From: Chroococcidiopsis thermalis PCC 7203
GTDB lineage: Bacteria > Cyanobacteriota > Cyanobacteriia > Cyanobacteriales > Chroococcidiopsidaceae
Direction of reading: 5' to 3'
DNA length: 64,000 nucleotides
Assembly: GCF_000317125.1 (NCBI RefSeq)
Contig: NC_019695.1
Span: forward strand, 3,088,336-3,152,335
Shown: positions 10,220 to 57,246 of the stretch, piece by piece
How the letters are laid out: every line of letters begins with the position of its first letter
How positions within the stretch are numbered: the first letter of the stretch is position 1
The notes under the pieces: generated by a model
Told to the model about the DNA's origin: nothing
What the model saw: the letters and a program-made list of their open reading frames with translations, nothing else
The model's database searches: none
Translations under genes and position numbers: made by a program

Positions 10220-11278
10220 ATGGGTAAAGAAGGGCGCGTATCGGTAGGAATTGTTGGCGCGTCAGGCTATGGCGGGGTGCAATTAGTCAGATTGTTGATG
10301 GATCATCCTGAAGTAGAACTCGTCTACTTGGGTGGCGATAGCAGTGCTGGCAAATCGTTTGCTGATATATACCCCCACTTAGCTCATCGGGTAGCGCAGC
10401 CAATCGAATCTGTCGATCCAGAAGCGATCGCGGCAAGGTGTGAGGTAGTCTTTCTCTCACTCCCCAATGGTTTTGCTTGCGATATGGCTCCTCAGTTGGT
10501 CGATAAAGGTTGTAAAGTTCTCGATTTATCTGCCGATTATAGATTTAGCGATTTAGAAACTTATCAAATCTGGTACGGCAAACAGCGGCAAGACATAGCT
10601 GTGGCAACAAAAGCAGTTTATGGCTTGCCAGAACTGTATCGCGATCGCATTGCCGAAAGCCAACTGATCGGTTGTCCTGGCTGCTATCCCACCGCCAGTT
10701 TGTTAGCACTTGCACCCCTACTAAAACAAGGCTTAATCGTACCTGAAACCGCGATCGTCGATGCAAAATCCGGCACGTCTGGGGGTGGTAGACAGGCAAA
10801 AACTGGACTGTTGCTGGCAGAAGCAGATAACTCCTTTGCTGCTTATGGCGTTGCCCGTCACCGTCATACGCCAGAAATCGAGCAAGTTTGCAGCGATTTG
10901 GCTGGACATCAAGTGTTAGTGCAATTTACTCCTCACTTAGTCCCGATGGTACGCGGTATCCTCGCCACCGTCTACGCCACTCTACGCGATCCTGGGTTAG
11001 TTAGAGAAGACTTAATTACCATCTACAGAGCTTTTTATCGCAATTGCCCTTGGGTAACAATTTGCGACAGTGGCATCTATCCCCAAACTAAGTGGGCGTG
11101 CGGCAGCAATCTCTGCTACATCGGTATCGAAACCGATCCCCGTACCGGTAGAGTCATCGTCTTATCAGCGATCGATAACTTGATCAAAGGACAAGCCGGA
11201 CAAGCAATTCAATGCCTCAACATCATGATGGGTTGGGACGAGAGTTTAGGACTACCTAAGCTAGGATTTTATCCCTAA
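10220..11278 (+). CDS. argC: N-acetyl-gamma-glutamyl-phosphate reductase
   Basis: Third step of arginine synthesis: NADPH-dependent reduction of N-acetylglutamyl phosphate to the semialdehyde. The 352-residue protein has the Rossmann loop [10 protein letters not shown] (10-19), the catalytic Cys155 in [10 protein letters not shown], and the conserved [12 protein letters not shown] and LVPMVRGI segments. A TTG nine bases upstream is possible, but AGGA (10207-10210) is at the right distance for ATG 10220. Other arg genes are not in the window, which is common in cyanobacteria. It converges with eno across a repeat-filled gap. Confidence 0.96.
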
Positions 11279-53885: not shown

Positions 53886-53980
53886 AACAAAAAAATTGTG
53901 TATAGTTTTGTTTTGGCACAATGCAACGATTAGATGTTATACCAATTCTATTTATCCTTGCACTAAATCGGTCGCTCATA

Positions 53981-54012
53981 GCCCCCCTTGTTAAGGGGGG
54001 TTGGGGGGATCT
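53981..54012. repeat. GCCCCCCTTGTTAAGGGGGG palindromic repeat element
   Basis: CCCCCCTT-GTT-AAGGGGGG inverted repeat followed by TTGGGGGGATCT. This is a well-known type of cyanobacterial interspersed element. It lies 41 bases ahead of the HAD gene start, in the expected promoter region. Confidence 0.8.
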
Positions 54013-54052
54013 TCCGTGGCGCAGTCAGATCAAAATGGTATTAGGAGTCACC

Positions 54053-54993: not shown

Positions 54994-55024
54994 TTGACTT
55001 AAACAACAAGTATGTTGCTAAACT
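54994..55024 (+). promoter_or_regulatory. promoter candidate overlapping SufR box 1
   Basis: TTGACT (54994-54999) as -35 and TAAACT (55019-55024) as -10, 19 bases apart. The SufR-type box at 55004-55017 sits between them, where a bound repressor would block polymerase. The spacer is longer than ideal, so this is a suggestion. Confidence 0.4.
55004..55017. promoter_or_regulatory. SufR-type operator, box 1 (CAAC-N6-GTTG)
   Basis: CAAC-AAGTAT-GTTG, the core pattern reported for SufR operators in cyanobacteria. It sits in a longer symmetric context, CTTAAACAACA before and TATGTTGCTAAAC after (54998-55023), which is shared with box 2. Confidence 0.7.
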
Positions 55025-55039
55025 AGTCAACAGCTTAAA

Positions 55040-55053
55040 CAACAGATATGTTG
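55040..55053. promoter_or_regulatory. SufR-type operator, box 2 (CAAC-N6-GTTG)
   Basis: CAAC-AGATAT-GTTG, centred 36 bp from box 1. The extended 26-bp palindrome CTTAAACAACA...TGTTGCTTAAG (55034-55059) is more symmetric than box 1. Confidence 0.7.
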
Positions 55054-55399
55054 CTTAAGTGAATAACAGACGCTCTGACAATTATCTGATGCACGCATTC
55101 GCTGAGCTATACACACTTAGCTGGGTAAAGTTTTGAAACAGCGTAGCTTGTGGATAGCACGGCACTGAGTTATTGTCAAGAGGAGCAAGATAGTCAAAGC
55201 ACCAGCTTGTAGTGTGGAAAGGAGTTTTGCGATCGAGACAAAAGCGGATTGCGTTTTTGTTGAGATTCGGATTAACCGTAACGCGATCGAAGGGTTGGCA
55301 AACTTTAAAGTAAAGCAGCCAGGGCAAGTGGAAGTGAGTAAGGCAGAAAAGGTGCTGCTGAACCTGTGAACTTACGATCCGGTTAGATATAGGAAAGAT

Positions 55400-55657
55400 A
55401 TGAATGCCATCTGGAACAACGTTAAAGAGGGTGCGATCGACTTCTGCCACAACTTTGGCTGGGCATGGTGGCTAGAAATTGACACCCAGAATCCACTCTG
55501 TACGTATTACTTCGGTCCCTTCCTTACTGCTAGAGAAGCTCAAGCTGCGAAGACTGGCTATGTAGAAGATTTAGAGCAAGAAGGAGCTACAGAAATTATG
55601 GCAACAATCAAACGCTGCAAACCAGAAAAATTGACGGTTTCAGCAGATTTGGCATAA
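55400..55657 (+). CDS. DUF1816 domain protein (copy 1)
   Basis: 85 residues, cytosolic by composition. The DUF1816 pattern is clear: WWLEIDTQNPLCTYYFGPF, AREAQAAKTGYVEDLEQEG and IKRCKPE. The family is restricted to cyanobacteria and has no known function. Two Cys positions (in PLCTYYFGPF and KRC) are kept in the other copy at 56154. Aromatic residues are dense at the front. With SufR boxes upstream and sufR downstream, an iron or iron-sulfur related role is inferred only. Confidence 0.85.
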   Translation: MNAIWNNVKEGAIDFCHNFGWAWWLEIDTQNPLCTYYFGPFLTAREAQAAKTGYVEDLEQEGATEIMATIKRCKPEKLTVSADLA

Positions 55658-55743
55658 AAGAGCGTCCCAGTAAAATCAGCATTCAGCACTCAAATGTGGC
55701 ATTTCTTCGGGAGAAAACTGAGTTTTCAAAGGTTTCCATAATC

Positions 55744-56043
55744 ATGATTCAAGTACTCGATCGCGCTGCAACAAACCAAAGTAGCGTTCTGTGCTGCTAT
55801 ACCAATGCTACTAACAGCCTTCAAATTGCCCGCATTACCAATATTCCTCACTGGTGGTTTGAGCGAGTTGTGTTTCCAGGGCAAAGATTATTATTTGAAG
55901 CCGTACCAGATGCCCGGTTAGAAATTCATACAGGTGCGGCAAGCGGCTCGATTCTGTCGGATAAAATTCCTTGCGATCGCCTTTGCGTCGGTGAATCGTC
56001 AGTTCATTCCGAGGACGACGAGTTCAGATCGCGCAACTATTAG
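55744..56043 (+). CDS. DUF1830 domain protein
   Basis: 99 residues from ATG 55744 (MIQVLDRAATNQSSVLCCYT); an earlier frame start at 55696 is less likely. The DUF1830 core CCYTNATNSLQIARI, IPHWWFERVVFPGQRLLFEA and ARLEIHTG is complete. Like DUF1816 it is a cyanobacterial family without known function. It has an adjacent Cys pair. The tail after about residue 70 is acidic and not conserved. Co-directional with both DUF1816 genes. Confidence 0.85.
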   Translation: MIQVLDRAATNQSSVLCCYTNATNSLQIARITNIPHWWFERVVFPGQRLLFEAVPDARLEIHTGAASGSILSDKIPCDRLCVGESSVHSEDDEFRSRNY

Positions 56044-56153
56044 CACTTGTGCGAGTGCAACTGAAGTTGAGTAGACTAAGGCAGGAAAACCAGGACTATG
56101 GAAAACATCAAACCAGATTGGAGTTAAGCATAACCTGAATTCGAGAGCATTTC

Positions 56154-56372
56154 ATGTCTCAACTAGAGCAACAAAACTTGGAATGGTGGGCAGAAATCGT
56201 GACCGATCGCCCCCTTTGTACCTACTACTTTGGACCTTTTGCCACAGCTAAGACTGCCAAACTCGCTCAGCTAGCGCATATAGAAGATTTCGAGCAGGAA
56301 GGAAGCAAGATCGTCTTTGTAGCCGTCAGGCGATGCCAATCGCAATTACTAACAAGCTTTGAGGATGAATAA
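56154..56372 (+). CDS. DUF1816 domain protein (copy 2)
   Basis: 72 residues with WWAEIVTDRPLCTYYFGPF, AKLAQLAHIEDFEQEG and VRRCQSQ: a paralogue of 55400-55657 with the same two Cys. It ends 11 bases before the convergent sufR stop. The DUF1816-DUF1830-DUF1816 order suggests one transcript, with gaps of about 86 and 110 bases. Confidence 0.85.
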   Translation: MSQLEQQNLEWWAEIVTDRPLCTYYFGPFATAKTAKLAQLAHIEDFEQEGSKIVFVAVRRCQSQLLTSFEDE

Positions 56373-56383
56373 ATTTACATGTA

Positions 56384-57037
56384 TCATTTCGCTTGAATCG
56401 AGTAGCCGCAGCAGCGATCGCCGCTATTCATCCATTGGGTGCGCTCGATAATACACTCTGGCAAAACCGCCGCAAAAATTTCTAACTCATGACCGCAAAC
56501 AAAGGAACATGACTTGGCAATTTTGGCGATCGCGCAGTTATGTTCGGTGAGGACAAATTTATCCTTGGAATTACTAGGATCGCCACTTACTACTAAATGC
56601 CATTCTGCCATGTACCCTTCTCGTTGACGAAGTTCTACTAGTTTTGCCACTCGCTCTTGCAGCGAACCGTTTCCCAAGTATTGGCGATATTTGACAACTT
56701 TACGTTCCCACTGCTGGCGGAGAATTGCTCTTACTTGTTCTTCCCCCACCATGTCCGTTAAAGTATCTAAAAATGAAATGGCAAACTCATCGTAACTATG
56801 GGGAAAGCTAGCTCTTCCTTGACGGCTAAGCTGATAGACATGATGCGGTCGCCCCATGCCAACTGGCATCGGTTGATACTCAATCAGCTGCTCATTCTGC
56901 AAATTTTTCAGATGCCGTTGTGTTGCTTGCCGACTAATTAATAAAGCTTTCGCCAACTGCTGTGCTGTTGCTTGTCCTTGTTTCAGCAAATAAGCCAAAA
57001 TCTCCTGTTTGGTAGAATAAGACTCAGTGGTTGTCAT
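56384..57037 (-). CDS. sufR: iron-sulfur cluster biogenesis regulator SufR
   Basis: A 217-residue DeoR/ArsR-like winged-helix protein. The helix-turn-helix is at about 22-47 (ATAQQLAKALLISRQATQRHL). The C-terminal cluster-binding motif is exact: Cys168-X12-Cys181-X13-Cys195-X14-Cys210, as reported for SufR, which holds a 4Fe-4S cluster. With cluster bound it represses sufBCDS and sufR and relieves this under iron or oxidative stress. Here a SufR-type box lies about 160 bp ahead of the start, which fits autoregulation. The usual divergent sufBCDS operon is not beside it: the next gene to the right is a GNAT on the same strand. Confidence 0.93.
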   Translation of the reverse strand: MTTTESYSTKQEILAYLLKQGQATAQQLAKALLISRQATQRHLKNLQNEQLIEYQPMPVGMGRPHHVYQLSRQGRASFPHSYDEFAISFLDTLTDMVGEEQVRAILRQQWERKVVKYRQYLGNGSLQERVAKLVELRQREGYMAEWHLVVSGDPSNSKDKFVLTEHNCAIAKIAKSCSFVCGHELEIFAAVLPECIIERTQWMNSGDRCCGYSIQAK

Positions 57038-57198
57038 AGTTCTATCTCCTAACCTATTCAGTAATAGGTCAAGGGCAGTTGGAACTGTTTGCCAATCCTT
57101 CTCTCAATAATCTGCATTACTGAGCAAAGCAATTGTTCGGCTTGAGTAGCGCTTTTGTTGTTGAGCTAGCCTTATCAAAATTATGCAACAAAATTAGG

Positions 57199-57212
57199 CA
57201 ACAAAGTAGTTG
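57199..57212. promoter_or_regulatory. SufR-type operator, box 3 (CAAC-N6-GTTG)
   Basis: CAAC-AAAGTA-GTTG, extended by G/T bases to GGCAAC...GTTGTTTAA. It is upstream of sufR on its strand, where the autoregulatory operator is expected. Confidence 0.65.
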
Positions 57213-57246
57213 TTTAACTCCAGAGGGTAGCCAATTACAAGCAATC

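Follow-up and report, generated by a model that had tools for sequence, protein, structure and literature searches.

A tandem pair of putative SufR operators heads three small genes of the DUF1816, DUF1830, and DUF1816 families in the window, by which we mean the whole 64,000-nucleotide stretch analyzed here (C1:3088336-3152335, from a 6.69 Mb genome in three contigs, denoted G000). It is reasonably likely that this SufR-class operator keeps the trio repressed for as long as Fe-S clusters are neither lost nor reduced; small regulatory-type proteins are thus probably a further target, in this genome, of the switch for iron-sulfur cluster assembly. The parts are known and the arrangement is new. 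The available portions of two reports (PMC13421787, PMC7058544) name sufBCDS, sufR itself, and ftrC as targets of cyanobacterial SufR, and no such unit is described in the titles and abstract openings, among the matches listed, of SufR and DUF1816/DUF1830 work in a largely non-subscription literature. The name DUF1816 was found in no paper of the literature searched, and the unit provides a first regulatory handle on these proteins. A second SufR (SufR2) together with a second canonical-grade operator pair also allows the recruitment of SufR to metabolism outside of cluster assembly to be probed.

Table 1. Features of the putative SufR-controlled unit, in window coordinates.
Feature	Positions	Strand	Evidence
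Weak promoter-like pair TTGACT-N19-TAAACT over operator 1	54994-55024	+	By eye
SufR-type operator 1	54996-55025 (core 55004-55017)	none	Score 36.4; 0 mismatches to TWWARCAACN6GTTGYTWWA
SufR-type operator 2	55032-55061 (core 55040-55053)	none	Score 32.4; 0 mismatches to TWWARCAACN6GTTGYTWWA
3' stub of peroxiredoxin gene	55308-55369	+	Alignment with 86-aa redoxin-like frame of G299
DUF1816 protein, 85 aa	55400-55657	+	PF08846, 1.3e-32; dN 0.025, dS 0.124 versus G299
DUF1830 protein, 99 aa (PirC/CfrA and PirN family)	55744-56043	+	PF08865, 2.7e-34; dN 0.059, dS 0.094 versus G299
DUF1816 protein, 72 aa	56154-56372	+	PF08846, 1.7e-25; one silent change versus G299 (dN 0, dS 0.022)
sufR2, second SufR-family regulator, 217 aa	56384-57037	-	TIGR02702, 284.6 bits versus cut-off of 178.8; four cluster cysteines kept
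SufR-type operator 3	57191-57220 (core 57199-57212)	none	Score 29.6; 1 mismatch to TWWARCAACN6GTTGYTWWA

SufR-type boxes in the window and across cyanobacteria

A pattern search of the 64 kb window returned four CAAC-N6-GTTG sites where 1.02 were expected, a number reached in one of 100 shuffles. Three of these are the cores of operators 1 to 3; the fourth, at 10661, is without operator arms and has a matrix score of -3.7. The preliminary description had reported two boxes 36 bp apart within a shared palindrome, a third box upstream of the SufR-family gene, and about one chance occurrence of the core per 65 kb, and these statements were borne out: the starts of boxes 1 and 2 are separated by 36 bp, both boxes contain the sequence CTTAAACAACANNTATGTTGCT, and box 3 is located 161 bp upstream of sufR2. 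Its argument against chance was too cautious, as a chance origin is implausible for each of the three boxes once their flanks are scored.

Flanks were scored with a 30 bp matrix of SufR operators. Its 128 sites come from the sufR-sufB loci fetched, where they make up 64 distinct box pairs, a set that includes the canonical pair of this genome and excludes the window. The three operators are the best matches in the window (scores in Table 1) and the fourth best match scores 5.2, whereas canonical SufR sites score from 17.5 to 36.9 with a median of 30.7. Removal of the organism's own family from the matrix (108 sites left) changed these scores little (36.3, 31.7, and 30.1), and 20 Mb of first-order random sequence contained no site scoring 22.6 or higher. 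Throughout the genome, the extended motif TWWARCAACN6GTTGYTWWA occurs with zero mismatches only at the first canonical site and at window boxes 1 and 2. The bare core is weak evidence by itself, with 146 forward matches genome-wide versus 175 in the reversed control, and the extended motif is not enriched when up to two mismatches are allowed (19 versus 22 in the control), such that weaker sites cannot be trusted on that basis alone. Collectively, the core, the palindromic A/T arms, and the tandem arrangement of boxes 1 and 2 support the assignment of boxes 1 to 3 as SufR-type operators, the first two of which head the trio.

The tandem-box pattern was identified in 179 of 388 cyanobacterial genomes, mostly once, and corresponds to the sufR-sufB layout in most of the fetched loci. 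Among the 30 tandem pair loci returned (L113-L142), sufB adjoins in all and sufR in 29, with L123 having sufB only. Absence of the strict pattern does not equate to absence of SufR sites, since several sufR loci show one exact box or none. As read from the table of matches, at least two forward tandem matches are present in five genomes (G000, G066, G227, G247, and G382), and the reversed tandem control has matches in four genomes. The two pairs in this genome are the canonical pair and the window pair. One extra tandem place each in G066, G227, and G247 is without clear A/T arms in the listed letters, and another in G247 is the main pair repeated on a second contig. Canonical tandem spacing ranges from 38 to 47 bp (64 pairs); at 36 bp, the window pair is close to this range but outside of it.

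The boxes had also been described as overlapping a promoter-like pair. Such a pair is visible by eye (TTGACT at 54994 and TAAACT at 55019, 19 bp apart), but a promoter scan with 16-18 bp spacers detected nothing over the boxes. The first intact gene begins approximately 350 bp downstream of the boxes, past a decayed peroxiredoxin gene. The lack of good promoter hexamers together with this gap suggests that the operator may be a relic, a reading that is weighed below.

A second SufR-family regulator beside the trio

The neighboring gene, previously described as sufR and convergent with the trio, is encoded on the minus strand and is indeed convergent. Its product passes the curated TIGR02702 cut-off and so belongs to the SufR family, but it is a paralogue: the sufR-sufBCDS locus of this genome is elsewhere, with canonical sufR (343.2 bits) at C1:2242953, divergent from sufBCDS and accompanied by two boxes 45 bp apart. 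The neighbors of sufR2 are the trio and an acetyltransferase gene, and it is not divergent from sufBCDS. Two more distant SufR homologues in the genome score below the TIGR02702 cut-off.

SufR2 retains four cysteines, C168, C181, C195, and C210, in the pattern CX12CX13CX14C (spacing read from the alignment), and these are present in 72, 72, 71, and 72 of 72 canonical SufRs, respectively. The ligands reported in the available part of one study are three, C164, C171, and C206 (PMC13421787). The presumed recognition helix of SufR2 has Gln where all 72 canonical proteins have Arg, and Asn where 67 of the 72 have Asp. A search by sequence for solved relatives returned none for SufR2 (E up to 0.01) and none for the DUF1830 protein (E up to 1).

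In a tree of 78 rows, SufR2 is placed among cyanobacterial SufRs, at a point that the tree does not fix exactly, and outside of the 18-row clade of the organism's family (support 100/96). This position rules out a recent duplication of canonical sufR; transfer, or an old duplication followed by losses, are both candidate origins. Matches to SufR at 1e-45 or better were identified in 243 of 291 genomes of the class, and besides G000 only G192 was listed with two. A search of 19 genomes of the family detected no second canonical-level SufR match in any of the 18 others, and one genome (G296, 65% complete) had no SufR match at all. A plasmid origin of the module was considered and set aside, as no close copy was found: SufR2-like plasmid matches are all less than 60% identical (the highest listed is approximately 34%), and the plasmid matches to DUF1830 and DUF1816 are likewise all below 60%.

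The trio and its history in the genus

The gene calls of the DUF1816-DUF1830-DUF1816 group behind the boxes hold (Table 1). Comparison with G299, another genome of the genus, indicates that the first and last trio genes look constrained and the DUF1830 gene less so, its dN/dS being high at approximately 0.63. All three frames are open in both species, with the exception of the first frame in G299, where the stop codon is changed and the frame runs on. The trio DUF1830 gene is one of six copies in this genome, and its product is 52-70% identical to 19 other aligned DUF1830 proteins, none of which is a named PirC or PirN; the consensus GMMASAI of the aligned proteins is GAASGSI in the trio protein. 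AlphaFold models of the DUF proteins have mean pLDDT values of 51.4 and 50.3. A faint likeness between DUF1816 (window 55400-55657) and the sigma-factor binding protein Crl centers on a WWxE motif; its E value was 0.26 with one sequence, 0.85 with two, and 1.4 with a 23-row profile, and the candidate was dropped as the likeness did not strengthen.

Of the two other genomes of the genus that were compared, G299 keeps the boxes and the trio without sufR2, and G298 is without everything, its matches to the two flanks of the unit being 64 bp apart. Both boxes (matrix score 34.8 each) and the trio are approximately 95% identical in G299, which encodes canonical SufR and has 317 bp of other sequence in place of sufR2. 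That segment (L206:4170-4486) contains a minus-strand open stretch for a hydrophobic peptide. The leader differs between the window and G299 at 28 of 558 bases, and retention of the boxes is indistinguishable from that of the surrounding DNA and so does not demonstrate selection.

The interval from the boxes to the first DUF1816 gene is 239 bp longer in G299, and the additional stretch holds most of an 86-residue frame (L206:2880-3137). Residues 4-53 of this frame match Redoxin (PF08534, 2.7e-14), and both of its ends match peroxiredoxins in the PDB (3uma, 5k2i) with the middle missing. In the window, the frame that includes the aligned stub (55214-55366) matches no Pfam family. These alignments point to a unit that once started with a peroxiredoxin gene, broken in G299 and reduced to a 3' stub in the window, and the older order would have been boxes, peroxiredoxin, DUF1816, DUF1830, DUF1816.

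Homologues of DUF1830 and of the first DUF1816 protein are widespread (312 and 327 of 388 genomes, respectively); for the second DUF1816 protein, the search for relatives covered plasmids alone. We fetched 54 DUF1830 loci and 51 DUF1816 loci. The former comprise 29 best matches, 20 further picked places, and 5 of the genome's own copies, and the latter 29, 20, and 2 of these, respectively; most reach approximately 1.5 kb upstream of the gene, with a few shorter at contig ends. None of the 54 or of the 51 has a site that reaches the canonical minimum score, the other of the two DUF genes nearby, or a SufR gene. A general presence of boxes upstream of DUF1816 and DUF1830 genes in relatives, the comparative expectation of the preliminary description, is ruled out for the loci fetched, and the link of these genes with SufR-type boxes was found only within the genus. 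The unit is lineage-specific; one of the two other genus genomes keeps boxes and trio, without sufR2. Three plasmid regions were left out of these counts. One of these, on the Acaryochloris plasmid pMB01 (NZ_CP071718.1, L173:5923-7251), encodes DUF1816 and DUF1830 proteins on opposite strands, approximately 0.8 kb apart and separated by a single gene, and neither a SufR-type box (best score -4.7) nor a SufR gene was found there; the other two contain no box (best scores 6.9 and -1.2).

A possible mechanism and competing readings

According to the available portions of two reports (PMC13421787, PMC7058544), CAAC-N6-GTTG is bound by SufR carrying [4Fe-4S] clusters, which acts as a repressor of sufBCDS and sufR; in one of these, binding weakens when the cluster is reduced, and expression is increased in iron limitation and oxidative stress (PMC13421787). 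In the favored reading, operators 1 and 2 would form a tandem operator of the SufR class that covers the promoter of a small transcription unit, which now encodes the trio and formerly started with a peroxiredoxin gene. A SufR dimer with [4Fe-4S] clusters (canonical SufR, SufR2, or both) would bind and repress, and clusters reduced or lost through iron limitation, oxidative stress, or photosystem I over-reduction would leave the unit derepressed. Operator 3 would make sufR2 a target as well, probably of itself. We infer binding, repression, the SufR that acts, and the inducing signal in the window by analogy with the described systems. The presence of an antioxidant enzyme, the peroxiredoxin, in the older operon would fit a signal of oxidative or Fe-S stress. 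The iron-stress module proposed in the preliminary description is likewise a putative one.

The DUF1830 domain is common to PirN and PirC/CfrA, as stated in the accessible part of one report (PMC13205821), and that of another describes PII binding and phosphoglycerate mutase inhibition by PirC/CfrA (PMC7760959). The trio protein has the same domain, yet its gene is one of several DUF1830 genes in the genome. Judging from family membership, it is possible that the trio protein, as its relatives, would adjust carbon or nitrogen flow. A more ambitious proposal, which we regard as unlikely, is that SufR2 and the operators form a self-contained Fe-S sensing module, gained and lost as a block among close relatives, through which damage to clusters would act on a small PirC/CfrA-like protein with two DUF1816 partners and adjust carbon or nitrogen flow when Fe-S capacity falls.

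The window unit resembles the sufR-sufBCDS system of Synechocystis (SufR, sll0088) and other cyanobacteria in its CAAC-N6-GTTG core, A/T arms, and tandem boxes, and in the nearby SufR-family gene with its cluster cysteines kept. It differs in having no suf genes, in its narrower box spacing, in targets that would be small DUF proteins, in a regulator convergent with rather than divergent from those targets, and in a SufR2 that branches outside of the SufR clade of its own family. The closest parallel for a target beyond sufBCDS is ftrC of Synechococcus elongatus PCC 7942, as given in the available text of one report (PMC13421787). There, however, the target belongs to the thioredoxin system and is transcribed together with suf, whereas the putative window targets encode DUF1816 and DUF1830 proteins and are not located beside suf.

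It is highly improbable that the boxes are palindromes arisen by chance or that they serve an unrelated regulator: the abundance of the bare core and the lack of enrichment of the loosely matched extended motif are what one would expect of such sites, but the flanking arms and the paired arrangement agree in full with those of SufR operators, and nothing similar occurred in the random sequence. Another question is whether the operators serve canonical SufR alone, with SufR2 binding something else and its proximity to the trio being incidental. This reading, which overlaps with repression of the trio by a SufR-class operator, is a tenable if tentative one. G299 has the boxes and canonical SufR without SufR2, the boxes fit a matrix of canonical sites, and the presumed recognition helix of SufR2 is altered, including at the position that is Arg in every canonical protein; the canonical-grade box upstream of SufR2 instead suggests a shared specificity.

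It is also conceivable, although we consider it rather unlikely, that the boxes are relics that controlled a decaying peroxiredoxin operon, in which case SufR may still bind while the trio is transcribed from another promoter or hardly expressed. The absence of sufR2 from G299 and of the whole unit from G298, a first gene broken in G299 and nearly gone in the window, and the elevated dN/dS of the DUF1830 gene are all consistent with such decay. Yet the trio frames have stayed open in both species, apart from the changed stop in G299, the last DUF1816 gene differs by one silent base, and the arms of the boxes are still of canonical grade in the window and in G299 alike.

Other places in the genome and the window gave further observations. 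A box at C1:1272502-1272525 (L219:1501-1524) was not counted as an operator because its score of 15.3 falls short of the canonical minimum of 17.5; 18 bp separate its end from the start of a 353-aa frame, presumably psbA. A stretch of approximately 105 bp in the window (53936-54044) is found again at about ten further places listed for the genome, and also in related genomes, and is a probable small interspersed repeat ahead of a dehalogenase-like gene. A SufR-type box within the canonical range (score 23.3) was identified at G000:C1:1107577-1107600 (L211:1501-1524), 60 bp upstream of a 121-aa frame that we take to be ftrC, the gene for the catalytic subunit of ferredoxin-thioredoxin reductase.
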